Positions 2,358-20,188 are shown, counted from the stretch's first letter. The stretch is DNA of 39,180 bases from Candidatus Bathyarchaeota archaeon (GCA_026015185.1 JAOZGX010000030.1:1-39180), one strand, 5' to 3'. Program-made: numbers and translations. Notes: generated from the sequence alone by a model not told the origin.

Positions 2358-4163
2358 TTATAATTCCTTTATCACATAATCTAAACCTAAATTTTCTAAA
2401 ATGCTTTGCTTTGGAATACCGTCTTTTGTCCATCCTCTTTTTTCATAATACCAATCCAACATGGTATTGTACTTATCATAATCCAGGGTGGATTCCTTAA
2501 ACTCTCCTTCGGAAGTAGGTTCTTTGAACCATCTCGCCGGAGGTATATCCATGTTTCTGTTCCATTTTTTATGTTCTCTGACCCAAGAACTTCTTATTAA
2601 TGTGTAAATCCTATCTGCTATCGTATACAAATCAGATAAGTCAAAATCAAATCCAGTAGCCGCTTTCAATAATTTTGGATACCAATCCAATTCAAGATTT
2701 ATTTCAACCCACGGAAATCTGCATGTCACCAAGCTTTCAAAAATCCCGCCTCTAACTCTTTGCTGCTCTATTAATTTGTCAACTTTCTCCTCAGAATATT
2801 CTTTCCTGCCTTCAGTGACCTCCCAGGCTATTATCCACGCATCTTTATGATGAGCTCCAATTGGAGATGTTCCATATGCTAAAGCCATACCTGGGGTAGA
2901 ATGACAATCATAAGCTGAAATTTCAAGCCCTTTGACATGCATTGCCCATGGAGCCGTATCTGCTCCCAATTTTTGGGACATAAGCCTTACTCCTTGCGCC
3001 AAGAAATCGCCTAAACCTGTTCTATTTGCTATTTGGAGGAGTAAATCCTTTATTTTATCAAAATCTCCCCACTCTATTTTGTCTTCTATAATTCCTTTAG
3101 AGGAACATTCTATGATGAAACCTATTGTATTGCCAGAAGATATTGTATCTATTCCGAGATCGTCTGCCATTCTTGTCAAATAGGATACTTGCTTTAGATC
3201 ATCAATTCCAATATTGGATCCAAGCATTGCTACGTTCTCATAATCAAGCTCTGCACTCCCATTTTGGCAATCTTTTACTATGTTGCCACAGATCATATTG
3301 CAATATGGGCAACCTCTCTGGGTTTCCTTGATGCTTTCCATAATATCTCCGCCTATTTTATCGGCTCCATCAAAAAACCCTTCTTTAAAGTTATAGGCTG
3401 GTAAAACATTGTGTTCTTGACTCCATTCTATTGTCATCATTGTACCTTGTCTCATCCAGAATTCATAATTAGGTTTGTTTCGGATAGTGTCGTAAGCTTC
3501 TTTTCCAATATCCCGTAAATCTTTTTCTTTATTTACAGGAATATCTTTATCTCCCTCTATAACAATCGCCTTTAGATTTTTTGATCCCATAACTGCCCCC
3601 ATTCCGGTTCTACCACCGGAACGACCGTTTTGAGATGTTACAGTTGAGAATAAGACCTTATTTTCGCCTGCCGGACCGATCTGTAGTATTCCTGCATTTT
3701 TGTTATAGTGCTCTCTTAGTGTTTTTTCTACTTCGAATGTACCAAGGCCCCAAAGTTCTCGGGCATCTAATATCTCGACTTTGTCATTTTTAATGTGAAC
3801 ATAACATGGTTTATCATGTTTTCCTTCAATAATAAGGAAGTCAAATCCTGCTTTTCTTAAATTAACAGCTGCCCAGCTACCTAAATTTCCATCACCATAA
3901 GCACCTGTTATTGGACTTTTTGATGCTACTAGAAATTTACCACTACTCGGCAAAGGTAATCCAGTTAAAGGACCTGTAGAAAATATCAGTTTATTTTCAG
4001 GGGATAGGGGATTAACTTCAGGTTTTATTTCATCCCAAAAAATTTTAGCAGCAAAACCTCTTCCTCCAAGGAATGCTTTTGCCATTTCACCGTCATATTT
4101 ATCGACTATGAATTTGTTCTTGGATAGATTAAGTCGCAAAAATTTTTGAATCCAGCCTTGCAT
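2358..4163 (-). CDS. Aldehyde ferredoxin oxidoreductase (AOR) family tungsten enzyme
   Basis: The 601-residue protein matches the AOR family over its full length (family about 605). The N-terminal half has the F-L-G-G-R-G-F-A-A-K segment at 31-40, the G-P-L-T-G and S-K-S-P-I-T-G pterin-binding stretches (64-87), and R-x-G-G-R-T-G-M-G-A-V-M-G-S-K-N-L-K-A at about 181-199. The [4Fe-4S] ligands are C285, C288 and C292, with the fourth in S-L-V-T-C-R-F near the C-terminal third. The active-site His region appears as Y-G-T-S-P-I-G-A-H-H-K-D. AOR enzymes oxidise aldehydes or reduce acids at a bis-pterin tungsten centre, exchanging electrons with ferredoxin in the cytoplasm. The substrate is unknown. 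There is no MoaD or ferredoxin gene beside it, unlike the second AOR at 17675-19540, so it may rely on general ferredoxins. The start ATG at 4163 fits the family N-terminus. Confidence 0.92.
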   Translation of the reverse strand: MQGWIQKFLRLNLSKNKFIVDKYDGEMAKAFLGGRGFAAKIFWDEIKPEVNPLSPENKLIFSTGPLTGLPLPSSGKFLVASKSPITGAYGDGNLGSWAAVNLRKAGFDFLIIEGKHDKPCYVHIKNDKVEILDARELWGLGTFEVEKTLREHYNKNAGILQIGPAGENKVLFSTVTSQNGRSGGRTGMGAVMGSKNLKAIVIEGDKDIPVNKEKDLRDIGKEAYDTIRNKPNYEFWMRQGTMMTIEWSQEHNVLPAYNFKEGFFDGADKIGGDIMESIKETQRGCPYCNMICGNIVKDCQNGSAELDYENVAMLGSNIGIDDLKQVSYLTRMADDLGIDTISSGNTIGFIIECSSKGIIEDKIEWGDFDKIKDLLLQIANRTGLGDFLAQGVRLMSQKLGADTAPWAMHVKGLEISAYDCHSTPGMALAYGTSPIGAHHKDAWIIAWEVTEGRKEYSEEKVDKLIEQQRVRGGIFESLVTCRFPWVEINLELDWYPKLLKAATGFDFDLSDLYTIADRIYTLIRSSWVREHKKWNRNMDIPPARWFKEPTSEGEFKESTLDYDKYNTMLDWYYEKRGWTKDGIPKQSILENLGLDYVIKEL

Positions 4164-6393: not shown

Positions 6394-8046
6394 TTGCAGA
6401 AAAACAGCTCCGCGAGCATACCTGTGGCTATTTTAAAGGATGGTGATAGAAAATCCAAAGGAAAAAACGCTCTATATTCGAATATTATGGCAGCAACAAT
6501 TCTAGGGCAGGCAATGAAGAGTTCGCTAGGACCTAATGGTCTTGATAAAATGCTTGTAGATGCTATAGGAAATTCCACAGTGACAAATGATGGAGCTACC
6601 CTGCTTAAACGCATGGAGGTACAACATCCAATAGGCAAAATGCTTGTAGAAATTGCAAAAACCCAAGACGAGATGGTGGGGGATGGAACTACAACTGTTG
6701 TTATTTTAGCAGGGGAATTCTTAAAAGAGGCTAGAGAACTTTTAGATAAAAGAATTCACCCATCCATTATAATGAATGGTTATCAAATAGCCTGTGAAAA
6801 GGCACAAGAAATTTTGAAAGAAATTGCACTAAAAATAGATCTAAAAGATAAAACTGTATTAAGAAAGGTTGCACAAGTTGCGATATCTACGAAAATGTTG
6901 GCTGAGCACAAAGGTATATTGGTCGAACTTATTCTAAGTGCGGTTTTACAGGTAACAAGAAAAACACCAAAAGGATACGATATAGATCTTGACGACATTA
7001 GCATTCAAAGAAAACCTGGTGGTTCGCTTGATGAAACGACCTTGGTTAATGGTGTGATAATAGATAAAGAAATTGCACATGTGGCGATGCCTCGAAGAGT
7101 TGACAATACTAAAATCGCATTAATTGTTTTACCTTTTGAAATAAAAAAAACAACAATCGATTCTAAGATAAACATACAAAATCCAGATCAGTTGAAGACG
7201 TTTACTGTAGAAGAAGAGAATATGTTAAAAAAGATGGTGGGCAAGCTTCACGATGAAGGAGCAAATGTATTATTTTGCCAAAGAGAAATAAGTGAGAAAG
7301 CTCAAAAAATGTTAGCAAATGAAAATATACTCGCTGTGAAAAGAGTAAAGGTAGCAGATATGGAAAGGATAGCTAAGGCTACTGGTGGTAAAATAATAAT
7401 TACGATTGATGAACTTGAAATCAAGGATCTTGGCTCAGCAAAATCGGTTAAGGAAAGAAAATTCGGCAAAGATAAGTTAATACTAGTTGAAGGTTGTAAG
7501 AATCCCAAAGCGGTGACAATTTTTATTCGTGGAGGAACCAATAAAGTAATTGATGAAGCAAGAAGATCGATTCTTGATGGACTTCATGTTTTAAAAGATG
7601 TAATTAATGAACCATTGGTTCTTGGCGGCGGTGGCGCATCTGAACTGGAAGTCTCAAAAAGATTAATAGCCTTAGCTGAGAAAACAAAAGGAAAAGAACA
7701 GTTAGCTATTAAATCATTTGCTAAAGCTTTGGAATCTATACCTACCACTTTGGTTGAGAACGCAGGCCATCGGTCTATAGATATTTTGACTAAATTGCGT
7801 TCAGATCACAAAAGAGATAATATTTGGAGCGGAGTATCACCATTAGACGGTAAAGTAATTGATACTTATGAAAATGGAGTGCTTGAACCTTTAATTATTA
7901 AAACTCAAGCAATTAGTTCAGCAAGTGAAGCTGCACAAATAATTTTAAAAATAGATGATGTAATAGCTAGCAGTAAATCCGAAATTGGAGATACGCAAGC
8001 TAAAGATCAAGAGGAAAACACAAGTGAAGAAGAAAAAGAAATCTAA
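6394..8046 (+). CDS. thsA: Thermosome subunit (group II chaperonin)
   Basis: The product of about 550 residues is a full-length archaeal chaperonin subunit, forming eight- or nine-membered double rings that fold proteins using ATP. Clear motifs are S-S-L-G-P-x-G-L-D-K-M-L-V-D and [10 protein letters not shown] in the N-terminal equatorial domain, G-D-G-T-T-T-V-V-I for phosphate and Mg binding, and [11 protein letters not shown] in the C-terminal equatorial domain. The protein ends in a Glu/Lys-rich acidic tail. I place the start at TTG 6394 behind GGAGGT (6377-6382); the frame stays open upstream to TTG 6361, but that would put the ribosome binding site inside the gene. The last 23 bases overlap rpoK. 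The Gly-Gly-Met tail repeats of bacterial GroEL are absent, as expected for this group. Confidence 0.95.
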
Positions 8047-11876: not shown

Positions 11877-12551
11877 TTATAATTGTAATGCAAGCTCTCG
11901 CAGTATTGATTCTTGGTCATCTGCTTTTACTACTCCGCTTGCCAATAAGACACCTTCAGATCCTAGATCAATTGCGGATTTTACATCTTCTCCATTTGTT
12001 ATACCGGCTCCACAAAGAATTGCAACTGAATTATTGACCTCTTTAACTAATGAAACAGTATCTGTAATTATTTCAGGATTAACTTTAGAGACAGCTGCTC
12101 CCTTCCCAATCAATTCTGGCGGCTCAATAGCAATCATATCAGGATTTAATGCTGCTATTGCTTTGCTAATATTTGCAGTACTGGCACATACTACTGTTAT
12201 TAATCCTAGGGATTTGGCTCTTATTATCGCTGATTCAATATCAGATAATTTTAATCGATTTTCTGAATGATTTATTAATGTCCCAATTGCTCCCGCTTCC
12301 TTAATAGACTCGGGTAAAATTTTTCCTGTATTTGCACCTGCTTCAATTGGATCTATATGTTGTGCAAAGATAGGAATCTTGCATTTTTCGAAAATAGCGC
12401 TTATGTCTGTAAATTGGGGCGCTATAGCTATACATTTACTCGTGTCTGAACTTATTTTCTCTGCAATTTGGGAAAGTTCTATCGCTCTTCTACCTGTGCC
12501 TTCTAAATAGGTTTTAAAATTGATTAGTATCAATGGCTTCTTTAAAGACAT
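11877..12551 (-). CDS. tpiA: Triosephosphate isomerase, archaeal type
   Basis: The 224-residue protein interconverts dihydroxyacetone phosphate and glyceraldehyde 3-phosphate. The short length is typical of archaeal enzymes, compared with about 250 in bacteria. Catalytic residues are visible: Asn and Lys in I-N-F-K-T-Y near the N-terminus, His in I-N-H-S-E-N-R and Glu in I-E-P-P-E-L-I-G-K-G, plus the phosphate-binding C-G-A-G-I-T-N-G and G-V-L-L-A-S-G near the end. I prefer ATG 12551, because archaeal homologues begin a few residues before the I-N-F-K motif; a TTG at 12563 with GGGG upstream is an alternative. With the neighbouring FBP aldolase/phosphatase and glycerate kinase it points to gluconeogenic carbon flow. 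Confidence 0.95.
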   Translation of the reverse strand: MSLKKPLILINFKTYLEGTGRRAIELSQIAEKISSDTSKCIAIAPQFTDISAIFEKCKIPIFAQHIDPIEAGANTGKILPESIKEAGAIGTLINHSENRLKLSDIESAIIRAKSLGLITVVCASTANISKAIAALNPDMIAIEPPELIGKGAAVSKVNPEIITDTVSLVKEVNNSVAILCGAGITNGEDVKSAIDLGSEGVLLASGVVKADDQESILRELALQL

Positions 12552-12716
12552 CCCACTTTTCAAGTATTAATCCCCTTTTTATTTTTAATTTAAAATTGTT
12601 AGTAGTGAAATCATGATAAATATTTATTTTATTCTTTGAGTTTTCCCTTAAAAATAGGAAAAAAACCAAAAAGAATTTTATTCCATAATAAATTAAATTA
12701 ATTTGGTGTACATTTT

Positions 12717-13832
12717 ATGATAAATGTTGCTAAGACAACGGTATCTATAATTAAAGCTGATGTTGGATCTCTAGTCGGTCATCATATTGTTCATCCAAAA
12801 CAAATTGAGATAGCGAAAAAATACATGGAGAAAGGAAAAAAAGCTGGTATAATAAATGATTTTCATGTAACTCATTGTGGAGACGATCTAGAATTAATTA
12901 TGACCCACAATAAAGGGGAGAATAATGCTAAAGTACACAAGTTATCTTGGGAGGTTTTTCAGGAAGTAACTAAACAAGGTTCAAAAAATCTCAAGCTATA
13001 TGCAGCTGGCCAGGATCTATTAACCGATTCATTTTCAGGTAATGTCAAGGGAATGGGGCCTGGAGTTGCTGAAATAGAAATAGAAGAAAGGCAAAGCGAA
13101 CCCGTTGTTATTTTTCTAGCAGACAAGACTTCCCCCGGTGCTTGGAATCTACCATTGTTTAAAATTTTTGCTGATCCATTTAATACAGCAGGATTAATAA
13201 TTGATCCAAATCTTCACGATGGTTTTATATTTGAGGTACTTGATGTAATGGAGGGCAAAACTGTAAAAATTAAATGCCCTGAAGAGATGTATGATATTCT
13301 TGCTCTAATCGGAGATCCAAATCTTTATGTAATTTCAAAAATTGAGCGCCATGATGGCTTGTTAGCTGCTGCTGCAAGTACCACCCGTCTATCTCTTATT
13401 GCAGGTCGTTATGTTGGAAAAGACGATCCAGTCTGCATCGTACGCGCTCAACATGGTCTGCCTGCAGTAGGTGAAATATTAGAAGCTTTTACTTTCCCCC
13501 ATCTGGTTCCAGGTTGGATGCGTGGATCGCACTTCGGTCCTTTGATGCCAGTAAGTGTAGAGAATACGATGAATAAGTGTACTCGTTTTGATGGGCCGCC
13601 ACGTGTTGTTGCTTTAGGTTTTCAAATAACTAACGGGGAGCTTGTAGGACCGGCTGACTTATTCGCTGATCCTGCCTTCGATCATACAAGAGATAAAGTA
13701 AATCAGGTAGCAGATTACATGAGACAACATGGCCCTTTCATGCCACATCGACTAGGAAAGGAAGAAATGGAATATACAACTTTACCATCCGTACTTAAAA
13801 AATTAAAAGATCGATTTAGAAGTGCTGATTGA
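12717..13832 (+). CDS. fbp: Bifunctional fructose-1,6-bisphosphate aldolase/phosphatase (archaeal class V FBPase)
   Basis: The 371-residue protein is the ancestral gluconeogenic enzyme that condenses triose phosphates to fructose 1,6-bisphosphate and removes the 1-phosphate. Family motifs include S-I-I-K-A-D-V-G-S-L-V-G-H-H at 10-23 (metal ligands Asp and His), H-C-G-D-D-L at 53-58, D-K-T-S-P-G-A-W-N at 136-144, D-P-F-N-T-A-G-L at 153-160 and G-R-Y-V-G-K-D-D-P at 230-238, where Y232 and K235 match the proton-relay Tyr and Schiff-base Lys of the aldolase site. Full length. The enzyme marks an anabolic sugar pathway in autotrophic or protein-degrading archaea. It is divergent from tpiA, whose product supplies its substrate, so shared regulation through the 165-nt gap is plausible. 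Confidence 0.96.
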   Translation: MINVAKTTVSIIKADVGSLVGHHIVHPKQIEIAKKYMEKGKKAGIINDFHVTHCGDDLELIMTHNKGENNAKVHKLSWEVFQEVTKQGSKNLKLYAAGQDLLTDSFSGNVKGMGPGVAEIEIEERQSEPVVIFLADKTSPGAWNLPLFKIFADPFNTAGLIIDPNLHDGFIFEVLDVMEGKTVKIKCPEEMYDILALIGDPNLYVISKIERHDGLLAAAASTTRLSLIAGRYVGKDDPVCIVRAQHGLPAVGEILEAFTFPHLVPGWMRGSHFGPLMPVSVENTMNKCTRFDGPPRVVALGFQITNGELVGPADLFADPAFDHTRDKVNQVADYMRQHGPFMPHRLGKEEMEYTTLPSVLKKLKDRFRSAD

Positions 13833-13873: not shown

Positions 13874-15259
13874 TCATTTAATTGGCATAGTGATTATTAT
13901 TGTGATATCATTCACATTTGAACCTGTGGGTCCTGTAAATATCAATTCGTTAATTTCTCTAAAGAAATTATAAGAATCATTATTGCTCAAGTATTCCAAA
14001 GGCAACAAATTTTTCCTCTCAGCTTTCATAGCACTTTTACCGTCAATTATTGCACCTGCTGCATCGGTTGGGCCATCTATGCCATCTGTGCCTAGAGACG
14101 CTATCGATACGCCATTTAATCCTTTAATTTTTGTAAGAGCACTCAGAATAGCTTCCTGATTACGCCCTCCTTGACCCTTTCCACTAACTGTTACAGTAGT
14201 CTCACCTCCTAATATCATGGCGAAAGGTTTGGTGGTATTCTCACGATTAACTATCTTTTCTAAAGCTAGAGCTGAATAAAATAATCCAGCATATCTAGCT
14301 TCCCCTTCTAGACAAGATGTTAAAAATAAGGATTCTACATTTAATTCATTCAATTTTTGCATGGCTGCATTACATGCAACTCGATTATTTCCAATTACTA
14401 TATTATCTACATTCTGAAATATTTTATCTTGAGGTTTTGGAGTCTCTGATGTTTTATTTACTATTCCCTCTTCAAATCTTTTTTTAATTGAATCTGAGAT
14501 GTTATTCCATAAGTTGTATTTTTTTAAAACATTTACAGCATCCTCAAAACGACTATTATCAGGCACCGTTGGGCCAGAAGCAATAACATCTAAAGGATCG
14601 TTAACAACATCCGACAAAATTAAACTAACAAGCTTTGTGGGATGAACTGCTTTAGCTAACATCCCGCCCTTAAATTTGGATAGGTGCTTTCTAACAGAAT
14701 TCATTTCGTTGATAGTAGCGCCAGAGTACAACAGGCTCTTTGTAATTTCTTGTTTTTCAGAAAGGTTTACTCCATTAGCTGGTAAAGGCATCATTGCTGA
14801 ACCCCCGCCTGATATTAAGCATATTACTAAATCATTTTCATTGGCATCCCTAGCAACCTCCAACATCTTTTCTACGCCTTCAATGCCGTTGTCCTTAGGT
14901 ATTGGGTGGCTGACTTCGTTAAGCTTTATGATATTTGTTCTATAATCTTCGGAAGTATGCTCAAGAATATTAATTATGCCATGCGAAATCCTATTGACTA
15001 GTATTTCTTCAAGTGCCTTTGCCATTGAACCAGTAGCTTTTCCTCCACCGATAACAAATATTCGTTCATATTTATTCAAATCAAAAGAGAGACCTTTGAT
15101 ATTCAGAATTTTGCCATCGAAATCTATCTTAGATTTAATCAATTCATATGGGTCTATTTTTTCTAAAACATAATCAAGACTTTCAAGTATTATGCGTCTG
15201 CTATCACGATCAGCACTTGATTCGCCATTTTTGACCAATTCTTCTTTATTCCTAATCAT
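13874..15259 (-). CDS. gckA: Glycerate 2-kinase, MOFRL family
   Basis: The 461-residue protein has both domains of the GckA/TtuD family: an N-terminal Rossmann-like half with V-I-G-G-G-K-A-T-G-S-M-A-K-A at about 70-83 and V-I-C-L-I-S-G-G-G-S-A-M-M-P-L-P at about 142-157, and the C-terminal MOFRL domain with I-L-G-G-E-T-T-V-T-V, G-x-G-G-R-N-Q-E and G-T-D-G-I-D-G-P-T-D-A-A-G-A. It phosphorylates D-glycerate to 2-phosphoglycerate, feeding lower glycolysis; in archaea it serves the non-phosphorylative Entner-Doudoroff branch or serine/glycerate use. Full length. It is convergent with the FBP aldolase/phosphatase gene and divergent from the AOR operon starting at 15422. Confidence 0.93.
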   Translation of the reverse strand: MIRNKEELVKNGESSADRDSRRIILESLDYVLEKIDPYELIKSKIDFDGKILNIKGLSFDLNKYERIFVIGGGKATGSMAKALEEILVNRISHGIINILEHTSEDYRTNIIKLNEVSHPIPKDNGIEGVEKMLEVARDANENDLVICLISGGGSAMMPLPANGVNLSEKQEITKSLLYSGATINEMNSVRKHLSKFKGGMLAKAVHPTKLVSLILSDVVNDPLDVIASGPTVPDNSRFEDAVNVLKKYNLWNNISDSIKKRFEEGIVNKTSETPKPQDKIFQNVDNIVIGNNRVACNAAMQKLNELNVESLFLTSCLEGEARYAGLFYSALALEKIVNRENTTKPFAMILGGETTVTVSGKGQGGRNQEAILSALTKIKGLNGVSIASLGTDGIDGPTDAAGAIIDGKSAMKAERKNLLPLEYLSNNDSYNFFREINELIFTGPTGSNVNDITIIITMPIK

Positions 15260-15421: not shown

Positions 15422-16147
15422 ATGAAGATTAATTCTCAAAAATGTGTTGGATGTGCACTTTGCATACCATACTGTGTTGAAGCAGCAATTACAATGGGCT
15501 CAGACAGGAAAGCAACAATAAACAGAGATAAATGTATCGAATGCGCTGTATGCTACAACTCATCGATATGTCCTGTGGATGCATTTGAACTGGAAGAACT
15601 CGAATGGCCAAGATCGGTAAGAGAGGTTTTCGCAACCGTCTATAAATCTCACAGCCAGACCAACGTACCTGGTCGTGGAACTGAGGAAATGAAAACAAAC
15701 GATGTAACTGGAAGATTTAAAGATGGAGAAGTTGGTTTTTCTATAGATATGGGCCGACCTGGGGTTGGCGTTGATCTAATAGATGCTGAGAAGCTTGCTA
15801 TGGCTTTAGCAAAAATTGGTATTGAATTTGAGCCTGAGAACCCGATTACGCATCTTATGAAGGATCCCAAGACTGGTGAGCTTAAGGATGATGTCAAACA
15901 AGAGCGAGTTCATTCATGCATTCCAGAATTTAAAACAAACATGGAGAGGCTTCCAGAAATTCTAGACACACTAAAGAAAATATCTCAAGAAATCAATACT
16001 GTATTCAGTTTGGGTCTTTGTTTAAAATTAACTCCAGAAGGCGAAATCCCTGAATTCATAAAGAACTATTTAGATGAAAATAAGATTCCCTATTATCTTG
16101 GTGGAAAAACAAATATTGGTTTAGGAAAACCATTAGCAAAAATTTGA
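15422..16147 (+). CDS. Ferredoxin-domain protein with an unrecognised C-terminal domain (first gene of the AOR operon)
   Basis: The 241-residue protein starts with a two-cluster ferredoxin domain: C-V-G-C-A-L-C-I-P-Y-C at residues 8-18 and C-I-E-C-A-V-C-Y-N-S-S-I-C-P at about 38-51, giving eight ligands for two [4Fe-4S] clusters. After a linker, residues about 85-241 form a domain I do not recognise; it contains G-F-S-I-D-M-G-R-P-G-V-G-V, a Cys in V-H-S-C-I-P-E-F, and a late L-G-L-C-L-K-L-T segment, then ends G-K-T-N-I-G-L-G-K-P. No membrane segment. It stands 14 nt before the next gene, and the five genes to 19540 all run in one direction with short gaps, so it is probably an electron-transfer or accessory subunit for the AOR enzyme. 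A TATA-like TATATTTATAT at about 15363-15373 fits the operon promoter. Confidence 0.75.
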   Translation: MKINSQKCVGCALCIPYCVEAAITMGSDRKATINRDKCIECAVCYNSSICPVDAFELEELEWPRSVREVFATVYKSHSQTNVPGRGTEEMKTNDVTGRFKDGEVGFSIDMGRPGVGVDLIDAEKLAMALAKIGIEFEPENPITHLMKDPKTGELKDDVKQERVHSCIPEFKTNMERLPEILDTLKKISQEINTVFSLGLCLKLTPEGEIPEFIKNYLDENKIPYYLGGKTNIGLGKPLAKI

Positions 16148-16161
16148 GGTGAGATATAGTA

Positions 16162-16785
16162 ATGACACATACTTTACATAGATCTGGAGATGCTGAATCC
16201 TTAAAATCAGATTATGTTGTACTTGTACTTCCGGCTCAAGGATTTAATAACGAAGGTTCAGCTCCAAAAATGCGTAAAATTCTAGAAATAATATTAAATC
16301 ACAACCCTGTAAATTTCGGGGATATGCGTACTGGCAACTATTTCAGAAAAGGAATGAAACCTATACTTGATAATACACAAGATAATTCGATTGTACACGG
16401 CGTATTCACAAATAGAAAAGATTTGGAGGAGTGCATTGCGGAACTTAAAGATGCTGATTTAGGAATATCTACTGTAGTTACAGGATTATTTGATGATGTA
16501 TGGGATTCAGTGAAGAAGGTTGGTCTAACTCCTCATAGTATTAATTTATCTTTAGGTGTCTGGGGAAAGAAAGAACTTCTTCCAGAACAAGAAGTACTAG
16601 ATATAACTACACAATGTGGTCATCACTGCATAGCTCCAAACTTGGTAAAAAAATTAGCAAATGATGTCAAAAAAGAAAAGATATGTATTGAAGAAGCAGC
16701 AAGAGTTATTGCAAAGCAATGCGTTTGTGGAGTAGCTAATCCATTAAGAACAGAAAAAATTCTTGAGCAGTTTATCAAAAAATGA
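16162..16785 (+). CDS. Conserved-looking Cys/His protein of unknown function (second gene of the AOR operon)
   Basis: The 207-residue protein starts at ATG 16162 after a strong GAGGTGAGAT. It opens with T-H-T-L-H-R-S-G, then a V-V-L-V-L-P-A-Q-G-F strand and turn with N-N-E-G-S-A-P-K. The C-terminal third holds I-T-T-Q-C-G-H-H-C-I-A and A-K-Q-C-V-C-G-V-A-N-P-L-R-T; these two Cys pairs and paired histidines look like a metal or cluster site. I recognise no catalytic family. The tight spacing (14 nt) after the ferredoxin-domain gene suggests the two proteins act together, probably with the AOR enzyme encoded downstream. It might be a substrate-binding, maturation or cluster-bearing subunit; none of these can be shown from sequence alone. 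Confidence 0.7.
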   Translation: MTHTLHRSGDAESLKSDYVVLVLPAQGFNNEGSAPKMRKILEIILNHNPVNFGDMRTGNYFRKGMKPILDNTQDNSIVHGVFTNRKDLEECIAELKDADLGISTVVTGLFDDVWDSVKKVGLTPHSINLSLGVWGKKELLPEQEVLDITTQCGHHCIAPNLVKKLANDVKKEKICIEEAARVIAKQCVCGVANPLRTEKILEQFIKK

Positions 16786-16855
16786 AGCAGACATCGTTAG
16801 AAAGACATAAATTTCCAAGGAATTAATCTAAGGTAACTAATGGAGTTCTTAGAAG

Positions 16856-17350
16856 ATGTGTACAATGTTACTTTTAATACCTGATCGGTGTACTGGGTGC
16901 AGAATGTGCGAACTCGCTTGTACAATGGCTCATGAAAAACTCTTCAATCCAAATAAATCAAGGATATCAATACAATTTGAAGGAACACCTGAGCTTTGGA
17001 ATCCTAGTGTTTGTAGAAGTTGCGGAGACCCACCCTGTGAAGAGGCTTGTCCGACTGATCCAAAAGCCATATATCGAGATGAGAAGATCGGCGGTGGAAT
17101 GTTAATACGTGAAGACGTTTGTATCAAATGCGGTAAATGCATTGAAGCATGTCCTTTTGCAGCAGTTTTTTGGCATCCCGATCAAAAGCTACCTTTAGTC
17201 TGTGATGTTTGTATGGGCGATCCTGAATGTGTGAAATACTGCGCTCCAAAAGCTTTACTTGTGGGTGGAAAACAGAAGCTAGCTGATGAAAAAAAGGCCG
17301 ACTACGGCAAAGACCAAATCAAGAAAGTAGAGGAAGCCTTTAAGAAATAA
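16856..17350 (+). CDS. Four-cluster [4Fe-4S] ferredoxin-type electron transfer protein
   Basis: The 164-residue protein has 16 cysteines in four sets: C-T-G-C-R-M-C-E-L-A-C (about 12-22), C-R-S-C-G-D-P-P-C-E-E-A-C (about 55-67), C-I-K-C-G-K-C-I-E-A-C (about 87-97) and C-D-V-C-M-G-D-P-E-C-V-K-Y-C (about 114-127). This is the arrangement of DmsB/HycB/CooF-type subunits, which wire a molybdo- or tungsto-pterin enzyme to its electron acceptor. There is no signal peptide or Tat motif, so it works in the cytoplasm. Its place two genes before the AOR gene indicates that it passes electrons to or from that enzyme. The start ATG 16856 has GGAG about ten bases upstream. Confidence 0.9.
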   Translation: MCTMLLLIPDRCTGCRMCELACTMAHEKLFNPNKSRISIQFEGTPELWNPSVCRSCGDPPCEEACPTDPKAIYRDEKIGGGMLIREDVCIKCGKCIEACPFAAVFWHPDQKLPLVCDVCMGDPECVKYCAPKALLVGGKQKLADEKKADYGKDQIKKVEEAFKK

Positions 17351-17375
17351 GCTAGACTACTTGGAGACCAAGAAA

Positions 17376-17669
17376 ATGGGAAAGGTAAAAATTAGACTTT
17401 TTGCACAATTGAGAAGGATCGCTGGAGTTAATGAAACTGATCTAGAGATCGATGATAATACGACTCTAAAAGATATTTTAGATAAATCGATAAAAAAATT
17501 CGGACCTGAGTTTGAGAAAAATCTAAAAGACACGAGAACCGGGGAATTAGCACCTTTTCTTATAATGCTTGGAAGAAAGGAGATTAGCAGTGTTAAAGGA
17601 GATTTAGATACAAAAGTTATGGATGGAGATGAAATTTCGATTTTAGAACCTGTTGGTGGAGGTATTTGA
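17376..17669 (+). CDS. MoaD/ThiS-family ubiquitin-like protein linked to the AOR enzyme
   Basis: The 97-residue protein shows the beta-grasp MoaD pattern: V-K-I-R-L-F-A-Q-L-R-R-I-A-G at the start, E-I-D-D-N-T-T-L-K-D-I-L and, at the end, D-G-D-E-I-S-I-L-E-P-V-G-G-G-I. MoaD supplies sulfur for molybdopterin or tungstopterin synthesis through a C-terminal Gly-Gly thiocarboxylate; copies next to AOR genes are thought to serve that cofactor. Here the protein ends G-G-G-I, one Ile beyond the glycines, so either the residue is removed or thiocarboxylation does not occur. ATG 17376 follows GGAG by nine bases and is preferred over the TTG at 17361. The glycine codons at the end also form the GGAGGT Shine-Dalgarno site of the AOR gene (17658-17663), coupling the two. 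Confidence 0.87.
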   Translation: MGKVKIRLFAQLRRIAGVNETDLEIDDNTTLKDILDKSIKKFGPEFEKNLKDTRTGELAPFLIMLGRKEISSVKGDLDTKVMDGDEISILEPVGGGI

Positions 17670-17674
17670 TATAA

Positions 17675-19540
17675 ATGTTTGAATATGGTGGTTATGCGGG
17701 TAAATTCTTAAGGTTGAATTTTACTGATGAAAAAGCTTCGACTATGCCACTAACCAAAGAAATGGCTAGGATGTTTGTTGGCGGTAATGGATTTGCTATT
17801 AAGATTCTCTACGATGAATTGGCAGCAGGTATTGATCCTTTAGGCCCAGAGAATAAAGTTGTAATTGCTAACGGCCCAATACAAGGAACTTTGATTCCAA
17901 CTGCTGGAAGGACTGCTGTGGCAGCAAAATCACCCTTAACTGGAGGATTCTTTGATGCTTATGGCGGAGGATGTTTCGGACCCGAATTGAAATATGCTGG
18001 CTACGATGGAATAATAATTGAAGGTCAAGCAAAAGAACCAACTTATGTAACAATATACGATGATAAAGTCCAATTCAAGGACGCTTCACACTTATGGGGT
18101 AAGACTACATTTGAAATGCAGGAAATGCTAAAAAAAGAATTAGATGATTCGAAGATACAAACCACATGTATAGGACAAGGTGGAGAGAATTTAGTAAGAT
18201 ATGCTGCTGTGATATGGGGCGCAAGAGCTGCTGGCAGAGGTGGATTAGGAGCGGTATTGGGTTCAAAGAAAGTTAAAGCTATTTCTGTAAGAGGTTCAAA
18301 GGATGTAAGTGTGCCTGATATAGAAGAATTCAGAAATTATTTGACTGAATTATATGGGAAAATCATAAGTAATCCTGGAACTGGCCAAGCTTTACCAACA
18401 CTTGGTACGCCCGGTGTAACTACAACACAAAATAAGCTTGGAGTATTGGGAACAAATAATTGGCAAACCGAAATCTTCGATGAAGTGGAAAAAATAAGCG
18501 GTGAAGTAATGAAGGAAAAGATGGTCAAAAGAGATAGAGGCTGTTTTTCATGCCCAATACGATGTACAAAAATGTCCTATATCAAGTCTGGTCCTTATGC
18601 TGGAACATTTGACGAAGGCCCTGAATACGAGACCATTTTTGCATTTGGTTCTATGTGCGGAATTCCTTCTATAGAAGCAATAGCAAAAGCTGACAGATTA
18701 AGTGATGAGTACAGCTTAGATACCATTTCGATGGGTGCAGTAGCGGCTTTTGCAATGGAATGCTATGAGAAAGGAATTCTTACAAAGAAAGACACAGATG
18801 GATTGGATCTCAAATTTGGAAATGATGAGGCCCTAATAGAACTAATTCATAAAGTTGCAAAGAGAGAAGGCATAGGCGACATTCTTGCCGAAGGATGTGA
18901 TATAGCTGCTAAAAAAATTGGCAAAGGATCTGAGAAATTTGTATCTACGATTAAAGGATGCGAGATGGCTGGTCACTCTCCAAGAGGAAATAAGGGATTT
19001 GGATTGGGTGTAGCTACCGGTACGCGAGGAGGTTCGCATCAAGATGCAAGACCTACTGCGGAAAGAATAGGAAAGGCACCTACTGATCGAAAAACTACAG
19101 AAGGCAAACCAGAATATGCTATAGGCACACAACACACCACGACATTGCAGGACTCAATGTGTGTGTGCAGGATGACTGAAGGCATTTATGGTTTATGGGA
19201 AATAACAAACGAACATTTGAATACTGTGAATATTGTTACAGGCATGGGCCTTACACTCGAGGAAATTACTAAATGCGCTGAACGAATAGTCAATCTTGAA
19301 AGGGCCTTTAATTGTAGGGAAGGATTCAATAGAGAAATGGATATATTAAGTCCCAGATTTATGACAGAACCTATTCCGGAAGGGCCTTCAAAAGGAATGT
19401 ATTATCCCAAAGAAGAATTAGAGAAATTGAAGGATAAATACTACGATCTGCGGGGATGGGATAAGAAAACTGGGATGCCTACAAAAAAGAAACTTGAGGA
19501 ACTTGGGTTAACAAAGGAAGCAAAAGATTTATACAAATAA
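17675..19540 (+). CDS. Aldehyde ferredoxin oxidoreductase (AOR) family tungsten enzyme, operon-encoded
   Basis: The 621-residue protein is a full AOR-family member. It has M-F-V-G-G-N-G-F-A-I-K at 33-43, A-N-G-P-I-Q-G-T (65-72), A-A-K-S-P-L-T-G-G-F (83-92) and A-A-G-R-G-G-L-G-A-V-L-G-S-K-K-V-K-A at 185-202 for the bis-pterin cofactor. [4Fe-4S] ligands are C290, C293 and C297, with the fourth in D-S-M-C-V-C-R-M near residue 490. The active-site region reads G-H-S-P-R-G-N-K-G-F-G-L-G-V-A-T-G-T-R-G-G-S-H. It differs clearly from the other AOR enzyme of the window (for example in the extended 255-275 stretch), so the two probably have different substrates. With the ferredoxin, the ubiquitin-like protein and two unknown proteins it forms what looks like a dedicated redox complex. 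The substrate is unknown; aldehydes, hydroxy acids or aromatic acids are all known in the family. Confidence 0.93.
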   Translation: MFEYGGYAGKFLRLNFTDEKASTMPLTKEMARMFVGGNGFAIKILYDELAAGIDPLGPENKVVIANGPIQGTLIPTAGRTAVAAKSPLTGGFFDAYGGGCFGPELKYAGYDGIIIEGQAKEPTYVTIYDDKVQFKDASHLWGKTTFEMQEMLKKELDDSKIQTTCIGQGGENLVRYAAVIWGARAAGRGGLGAVLGSKKVKAISVRGSKDVSVPDIEEFRNYLTELYGKIISNPGTGQALPTLGTPGVTTTQNKLGVLGTNNWQTEIFDEVEKISGEVMKEKMVKRDRGCFSCPIRCTKMSYIKSGPYAGTFDEGPEYETIFAFGSMCGIPSIEAIAKADRLSDEYSLDTISMGAVAAFAMECYEKGILTKKDTDGLDLKFGNDEALIELIHKVAKREGIGDILAEGCDIAAKKIGKGSEKFVSTIKGCEMAGHSPRGNKGFGLGVATGTRGGSHQDARPTAERIGKAPTDRKTTEGKPEYAIGTQHTTTLQDSMCVCRMTEGIYGLWEITNEHLNTVNIVTGMGLTLEEITKCAERIVNLERAFNCREGFNREMDILSPRFMTEPIPEGPSKGMYYPKEELEKLKDKYYDLRGWDKKTGMPTKKKLEELGLTKEAKDLYK

Positions 19541-19663: not shown

Positions 19664-20188
19664 ATGAGTGAAGAGATACGTTATGCAGGATCCGAAGCTA
19701 AACTTGGAAGGATAATTCAAGCTCGTTTGAAACCAGGAACCGATCTTATCGCTGGTATAGACAAAGTCTGTGAGGATTATGGAATAGAAAATGGTGTTAT
19801 AACTCTTGGTATCGGGAGTTTACGAAAAACCGCCTTTAAGTTCTTAATTCCAAATGATGAATTGAAACTTGGATCAGGATATGGTGATCCATATTTCATG
19901 GATGGGCCTATAGAATTTCTAGGGGGACAAGGTTTGATTTGTAGACTAGAAGATGGCAATAGAGCAATACACCTACACGGCCTATTGAATAGAACATCTG
20001 TTGAAGGCGGTAAACCTAAGCCAGATTATGTTCTTGGGGGCGACTTCGGTGTCGGAAAAGATAAAAATCCAATTTTAGCAACAATGGATCTGATGATAAC
20101 TGAATTGAAAGGAGTAAAAATCACAAGGAAGTACGACGATGAGACAGAAATACCGACTAGATTAGATTATGAGAAGGGAGAAGATTAA
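19664..20188 (+). CDS. PPC (DUF296) domain protein
   Basis: The 174-residue protein has the compact PPC fold signature: R-I-I-Q-A-R-L-K-P-G-T-D-L-I near the N-terminus, an I-E-N-G-V-I-T-L-G-I-G-S-L segment (about 41-53), and A-I-H-L-H-G-L-L-N-R, whose two histidines with a downstream His/Asp form the metal site seen in archaeal PPC structures. Plant AHL proteins use this domain beside AT-hooks, but prokaryotic single-domain versions have no established function and lack any DNA-binding hook here. It has its own promoter-like elements and a good ribosome binding site, and follows the AOR operon after a T-tract, so a functional link is possible but not required. Confidence 0.85.
   Translation: MSEEIRYAGSEAKLGRIIQARLKPGTDLIAGIDKVCEDYGIENGVITLGIGSLRKTAFKFLIPNDELKLGSGYGDPYFMDGPIEFLGGQGLICRLEDGNRAIHLHGLLNRTSVEGGKPKPDYVLGGDFGVGKDKNPILATMDLMITELKGVKITRKYDDETEIPTRLDYEKGED

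Follow-up and report, generated by a model that had tools for sequence, protein, structure and literature searches.

Two Probable Units in One Operon

Whether the proteins encoded beside a tungsten-dependent aldehyde:ferredoxin oxidoreductase (AOR) are parts of that enzyme is the question raised by a five-gene operon at positions 15422-19540 of a 39,180-nt stretch of DNA from Candidatus Bathyarchaeota archaeon (GCA_026015185.1 JAOZGX010000030.1:1-39180; the whole stretch is hereafter the window). The original prediction, made from the sequence of the window, took the first two products, which it could not assign, for dedicated subunits or maturation factors of the AOR. The operon is here resolved into two units: genes 3-5 encode a known type of multi-subunit AOR, ordinary in its composition, while genes 1-2 encode an orphan redox pair, FdX and the CGHHC protein, which is the interesting residue of the locus. 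The reading that we prefer, and to which we give an even chance, is that of an AOR unit, likely acting on glyceraldehyde, and an independent FdX/CGHHC redox module recruited into one operon.

The five open reading frames lie on the plus strand, separated by gaps of 14, 70, 10, and 5 nt, in agreement with the same-strand arrangement and mostly short gaps originally described. As characterized by profile matches, alignment, and structural modelling, FdX (15422-16147, 241 aa) consists of a 2[4Fe-4S] ferredoxin domain followed by an orphan domain with a predicted ferredoxin-like (ACT/PII-like) fold. The CGHHC protein (16162-16785, 207 aa), characterized by alignment and modelling, is an orphan family with a predicted ferredoxin-like N-terminal domain and a helical C-terminal Cys domain. 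They are followed by a 4x[4Fe-4S] electron-transfer subunit of the AorA/WOR5-small-subunit type (16856-17350, 164 aa), a MoaD-like sulfur carrier of the archaeal MoaD family (17361-17669, 102 aa, C-terminus ...VGGGI), and the AorB-like catalytic subunit of an AOR-family tungsten enzyme (17675-19540, 621 aa).

This gene order is conserved outside the genome of the window, as had been proposed, being complete in L003, L024, L026, and L028, and readable up to the contig ends in L025 and L027; these relatives represent five further genera within a single Bathyarchaeia family (f1, the family of the window, with relatives G002-G007). Two further hits that might have indicated horizontal spread were discarded. 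In an "Aminicenantes" genome (L002) the operon sits exactly between two 100-N scaffold gaps (7104-7203 and 12233-12332), probably as a mis-scaffolded archaeal contig, and a "Borrarchaeum" hit (L001) is a 3.3-kb contig with 98% identity that was probably mis-binned.

FdX and CGHHC Form an Obligate Pair

A survey of 151 related genomes found CGHHC in 25; the FdX C-terminal domain occurs in 23 genomes, every one of which also encodes CGHHC. The two genomes with CGHHC and no FdX carry it beside an N-gap (G066) and at a contig end (G112), and in every other locus read both genes are adjacent, some overlapping by a few bases. Distance matrices of the two proteins correlate closely (r = 0.954, the maximum in 2000 permutations being 0.37), and the pair is duplicated as such in four genomes, in tandem in G046, G064, and G118 (loci L030-L032) and as two separate copies in G083. 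FdX and CGHHC are thus an obligate pair, and no relatives of it were detected in the plasmids and viral contigs searched. Profile comparison found no relation between the two proteins themselves.

The Pair Also Occurs Outside AOR Operons

Within family f1 the pair always comes first in the operon, directly upstream of the AorA, MoaD, and AOR genes, which is an argument for regarding FdX and CGHHC as dedicated subunits or tungsten-cofactor maturation factors, complexed with the operon AOR. Elsewhere in the class (Bathyarchaeia), namely in families f13, f14, and f22, the pair stands alone as a cassette whose neighbours differ from locus to locus. When pair loci outside the family were counted, requiring both genes to be readable and taking tandem copies as one locus, 15 of the 16 showed no AOR in the flank fetched. 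The remaining locus (L043, in G077), where FdX/CGHHC stands divergent from another AOR/AorA pair, favours dedicated parts, but one such adjacency in 16 is unsurprising in AOR-rich genomes (rough estimate, about 10-15%). Where the pair is missing, AORs are still the norm (23 of 26 genomes sampled), and the nearest AOR homologues outside the family (44-49% identity) adjoin an AorA-type subunit in all eight loci read, again without FdX/CGHHC; the AOR-AorA unit is therefore general in the class.

Since 15 of 16 pair loci outside the family show no AOR in the flank fetched and AORs are common where the pair is missing, FdX and CGHHC are probably not dedicated AOR parts. AORs do not generally require the pair, nor is it limited to AOR operons; it is probably a redox module in its own right that the f1 operon has recruited. 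The role originally ascribed to the two proteins is, on these grounds, unlikely.

Two observations concern the surroundings of the cassette. In G088 a DUF1786 gene (ASKHA-like motif) sits immediately upstream of the pair (L034, 6266-8893, minus strand), and in G066 another shares the contig block of CGHHC (L029, 7136-12742, plus strand). DUF1786 as an energizing partner was retained as no more than a lead, given that only 12 genomes are common to both gene sets, mostly of one family, and that DUF1786 has no conserved context.

Features of the FdX and CGHHC Proteins

Fer4 profiles match residues 2-56 of FdX, with Cys 8, 11, 14, 18, 38, 41, 44, and 50, and none matches its C-terminus, so the eight-Cys ferredoxin fused to an unassigned domain is as first described. 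The remaining ~180 residues have no relative in the Protein Data Bank (PDB) and no Pfam or NCBIfam match over the curated cut-off in any of 26 members (best E 0.006, to unrelated names); weak similarities to glycerate kinase 2b8n (E 0.04) and DUF4147 (E 0.18) were treated as chance. The orphan domain displays the motif R-G-T-E-E-M-K-T-N-D-V-T-G-R ... G-R-P-G-V-G, and the alignment of FdX contains 41 invariant columns, including R-G-T, K-T-N, and G-R-P-G, a degree of conservation that appears to exceed the needs of a simple electron carrier. The AlphaFold2 model of FdX is of moderate quality (pLDDT 76.3), its orphan domain scoring above the ferredoxin part, and the order of secondary-structure elements predicts for that domain a ferredoxin-like alpha/beta fold. 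In most f14 loci (L033-L040) FdX contains an insertion of ~29 residues among the Cys of its second cluster, and in L026 (5327-6695) a partial FdX duplicate, reflecting either duplication or an assembly artefact, directly precedes the full gene.

The second protein carries the motifs C152-G-H-H-C156 and C187-V-C189, as reported for the window, but the full C-G-H-H-C is not kept family-wide. C156 is confined to the family of the window, and the second His to that family and a single paralogue group, which reduces the common motif to C-G-H ... C-x-C. Invariant positions across 26 sequences include T2, T4, R7, H125, C152-G153-H154, C187, C189, N193, and R196. The three invariant Cys, together with a conserved His, point to either a metal or a site-differentiated Fe-S centre, and our best guess is that the three cysteines form such a site, supplied with electrons. 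CGHHC likewise has no PDB relative and, in any of 26 members, no Pfam or NCBIfam match over the curated cut-off (best E 0.005, to unrelated names). Its AlphaFold2 model is confident (pLDDT 86.6), and from the order of its secondary-structure elements a ferredoxin-like N-terminal domain with a helical C-terminus is predicted. Hence, apart from the ferredoxin domain of FdX, neither protein can be assigned through Pfam, NCBIfam, or the PDB, as had been anticipated.

In linking a dicluster ferredoxin to a predicted ferredoxin-like alpha/beta domain, and in having a conserved-Cys partner encoded alongside, FdX recalls ACT/PII-like and NIL-domain ferredoxin fusions, the latter being a known type. 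Sequence similarity to them was, however, not detected (the NIL and ACT models give no match), and the partner does not belong to DUF39/HcyBio.

Genes 3-5 Encode an Ordinary Multi-Subunit AOR

The 621-aa enzyme matches AFOR_N (251.6 bits, E 7e-75) and AFOR_C (433.1 bits, E 1e-129), both over the Pfam cut-off, and the 102-aa protein matches MoaD/ThiS (PF02597) and, over its cut-off, TIGR01687, in agreement with the family memberships first proposed for the fifth and fourth genes. The third protein was correctly recognized as a ferredoxin from its multiple Fer4 matches, but contains 17 Cys rather than the 16 initially counted. Its best PDB matches are 6x1o_B, the WOR5 small subunit (93 bits), 8c0z_C (AOR, 82.5 bits), and 9mqx_E (AOR, 82 bits). 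Together, the co-encoded four-cluster small subunit and MoaD identify genes 3-5, as the prediction had it, as a multi-subunit AOR of the AorAB type, predicted to be a W-bispterin aldehyde oxidoreductase.

Comparison with characterized types places the catalytic subunit closest to Pyrococcus AOR (447 bits), ahead of FOR (344), WOR5 (273), and BamB (244), and in a small tree it forms with its family relatives a clade of its own, with 37-41% identity to solved AORs. It falls far from GAPOR (NCBIfam GAPOR_Arch, 45.8 bits against a cut-off of 1300 bits). Like the Pyrococcus furiosus enzyme (PDB 1aor), its top-scoring solved relative, it keeps the pterin and cluster ligands, with the four cluster Cys (equivalents of C288, C291, C295, and C494) and the active-site Glu and His (E313 and H448). 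E332 and H383, the bridging-iron ligands of 1aor, are replaced by K and I (K/R and I/L in relatives). Thus, unlike 1aor, a homodimer with bridging iron and no small subunit, the operon AOR lacks these ligands and is not a homodimeric archaeal AOR sensu stricto.

The two bridging-iron residues are also missing from the Aromatoleum and Moorella AORs (PMC6365974). Among the closest described counterparts of the unit is the three-subunit AorABC of Aromatoleum aromaticum (PMC6365974, PDB 8c0z), which shares with it the catalytic subunit, the four-cluster small subunit, and co-encoded MoaD-like proteins (AorD/AorE). Both systems nonetheless differ: the catalytic subunits are 37% identical, the Aromatoleum operon as described contains nothing equivalent to FdX or CGHHC, and the FAD subunit (AorC) is missing from the window operon. 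Regarding WOR5 and its Fe-S small subunit from P. furiosus (PDB 6x1o/6x6u), the resemblance concerns the four-cluster subunit, whereas the catalytic subunit is far closer to AOR. No gene for an FAD/NAD subunit was found in or beside the operon, and the suggestion that it performs its own electron bifurcation found no supporting evidence.

The MoaD-like proteins of the window, L002, L003, L025, and L026 extend one or two residues beyond GGG (GGGI, GGGVY, GGGIK, GGGW), those of L024, L027, and L028 terminating at GGG; the former would need trimming if they act as thiocarboxylate carriers. In L026 (10078-10431) and L027 (3641-4102) the AOR is followed by another MoaD-like gene, an arrangement that recalls aorD/aorE of Aromatoleum (PMC6365974).

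Metabolic Context

A MOFRL-type glycerate 2-kinase (13874-15259, minus strand) is the divergent neighbour of the operon, and is kept as such in the five family loci with enough flank (window, L003, L025, L026, and L028). A fructose-1,6-bisphosphate aldolase/phosphatase (12717-13832, plus strand) and a triosephosphate isomerase (11877-12563, minus strand) complete the context in the window and are also found in L003, L025, and L026. GAPDH is present in L025 and L026, and a 2-hydroxyacid dehydrogenase in L024 and L028, in the latter between the glycerate kinase and the operon. Characterized archaeal MOFRL kinases convert D-glycerate into 2-phosphoglycerate in the branched Entner-Doudoroff pathway (PMC2063504). 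Combined with this reaction, the glycerate-kinase neighbourhood makes oxidation of glyceraldehyde to glycerate, with ferredoxin as acceptor, the best guess for the AOR, and suggests glyceraldehyde as its substrate. The aromatic chemistry put forward at first found no supporting evidence, the neighbourhood indicating triose and glycerate metabolism.

Downstream of the AOR, after 123 nt, a PCC/DUF296-domain protein (19664-20188, plus strand), also present in L003, the closest relative, and in L002, may represent a sixth gene of the operon. The genome of the window holds five AOR-family genes, and the second of them within the window (2358-4163, minus strand) groups with the Pyrococcus formaldehyde ferredoxin oxidoreductase (support 1.0).

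Proposed Function and Alternatives

Under the preferred reading, the W-bispterin of the AOR would oxidize an aldehyde, D-glyceraldehyde being the most likely, and the D-glycerate formed would supply the adjoining glycerate 2-kinase. Electrons would pass through the four-cluster small subunit to ferredoxin, and the MoaD-like protein would donate cofactor sulfur. In the recruited module, the two FdX clusters would feed electrons to the three-Cys site of CGHHC (C152, C187, and C189), where an Fe-S cluster or a metal is probably bound with one coordination position free, and the conserved Arg/Lys/Thr/Asn-rich domain of FdX would bind a small anionic ligand.

Several points weigh against this reading. 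The glyceraldehyde assignment is drawn wholly from gene context, and the chemistry of FdX and CGHHC is a proposal from residues and predicted folds, whose three-Cys site might instead be Zn-binding or structural. Structure prediction of the 241- and 207-residue proteins provided models, but these gave nothing at E <= 1e-3 in Foldseek searches against the PDB, the best matches being generic PII/ACT-like folds (SbtB, prob 0.97; PstA, prob 0.90; E about 0.1, not significant). In addition, several flanks are short, the absence of AOR from pair loci applying to the flank fetched, and every pair-containing genome examined encodes AORs (4-20 matches in each of the 17 outside the family). Considering these genomes and the arrangement in L043, the pair may act in trans with AOR.

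The alternative that survives best, which we hold to be a serious possibility short of an even chance, is that the operon serves another aldehyde (e.g., aromatic, glycolaldehyde, or amino-acid-derived), with the glycerate kinase being incidental. The Aromatoleum AOR takes a broad variety of aldehydes (PMC6365974), the operon AOR stands in its own clade, and the kinase is divergently transcribed; however, the glycerate kinase stays beside the operon from genus to genus in the family, whereas the rest of the flanking genes vary.

A bolder possibility, still doubtful in our view, is that FdX/CGHHC constitutes a redox enzyme of a new two-component type. FdX, a dicluster ferredoxin with an ACT-like domain that binds the substrate, would then drive CGHHC, a partner of an undescribed family with a site-differentiated (three-Cys) Fe-S cluster, and the two would serve as a portable Bathyarchaeia module that in one family is wired into tungsten-dependent aldehyde metabolism. 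Alternatively, the pair could be a redox or metabolite sensor-regulator, with PII/ACT-like domains binding a metabolite, Fe-S clusters reporting redox state, and a partner enzyme being controlled. The closest, non-significant folds (PII, SbtB, PstA, and aspartokinase-regulatory ACT domains) and the lack of fixed metabolic neighbours outside the window's family point this way. Nonetheless, such matches are typical of the ferredoxin-like superfold in general, neither protein has a DNA-binding or signalling domain, and the many invariant polar residues with three invariant Cys resemble an active site, making a sensor improbable. A 6-hydroxynicotinate reductase was discarded, with no profile match and no literature support found.

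Implications for Bathyarchaeia

Bathyarchaeia are mostly uncultured and possess many AORs with no assigned substrate, for one of which the conserved glycerate-kinase link offers a testable candidate. FdX/CGHHC, for its part, is a small, well-conserved redox module belonging to no known family, and could be produced in a laboratory host, so that its chemistry is directly testable.

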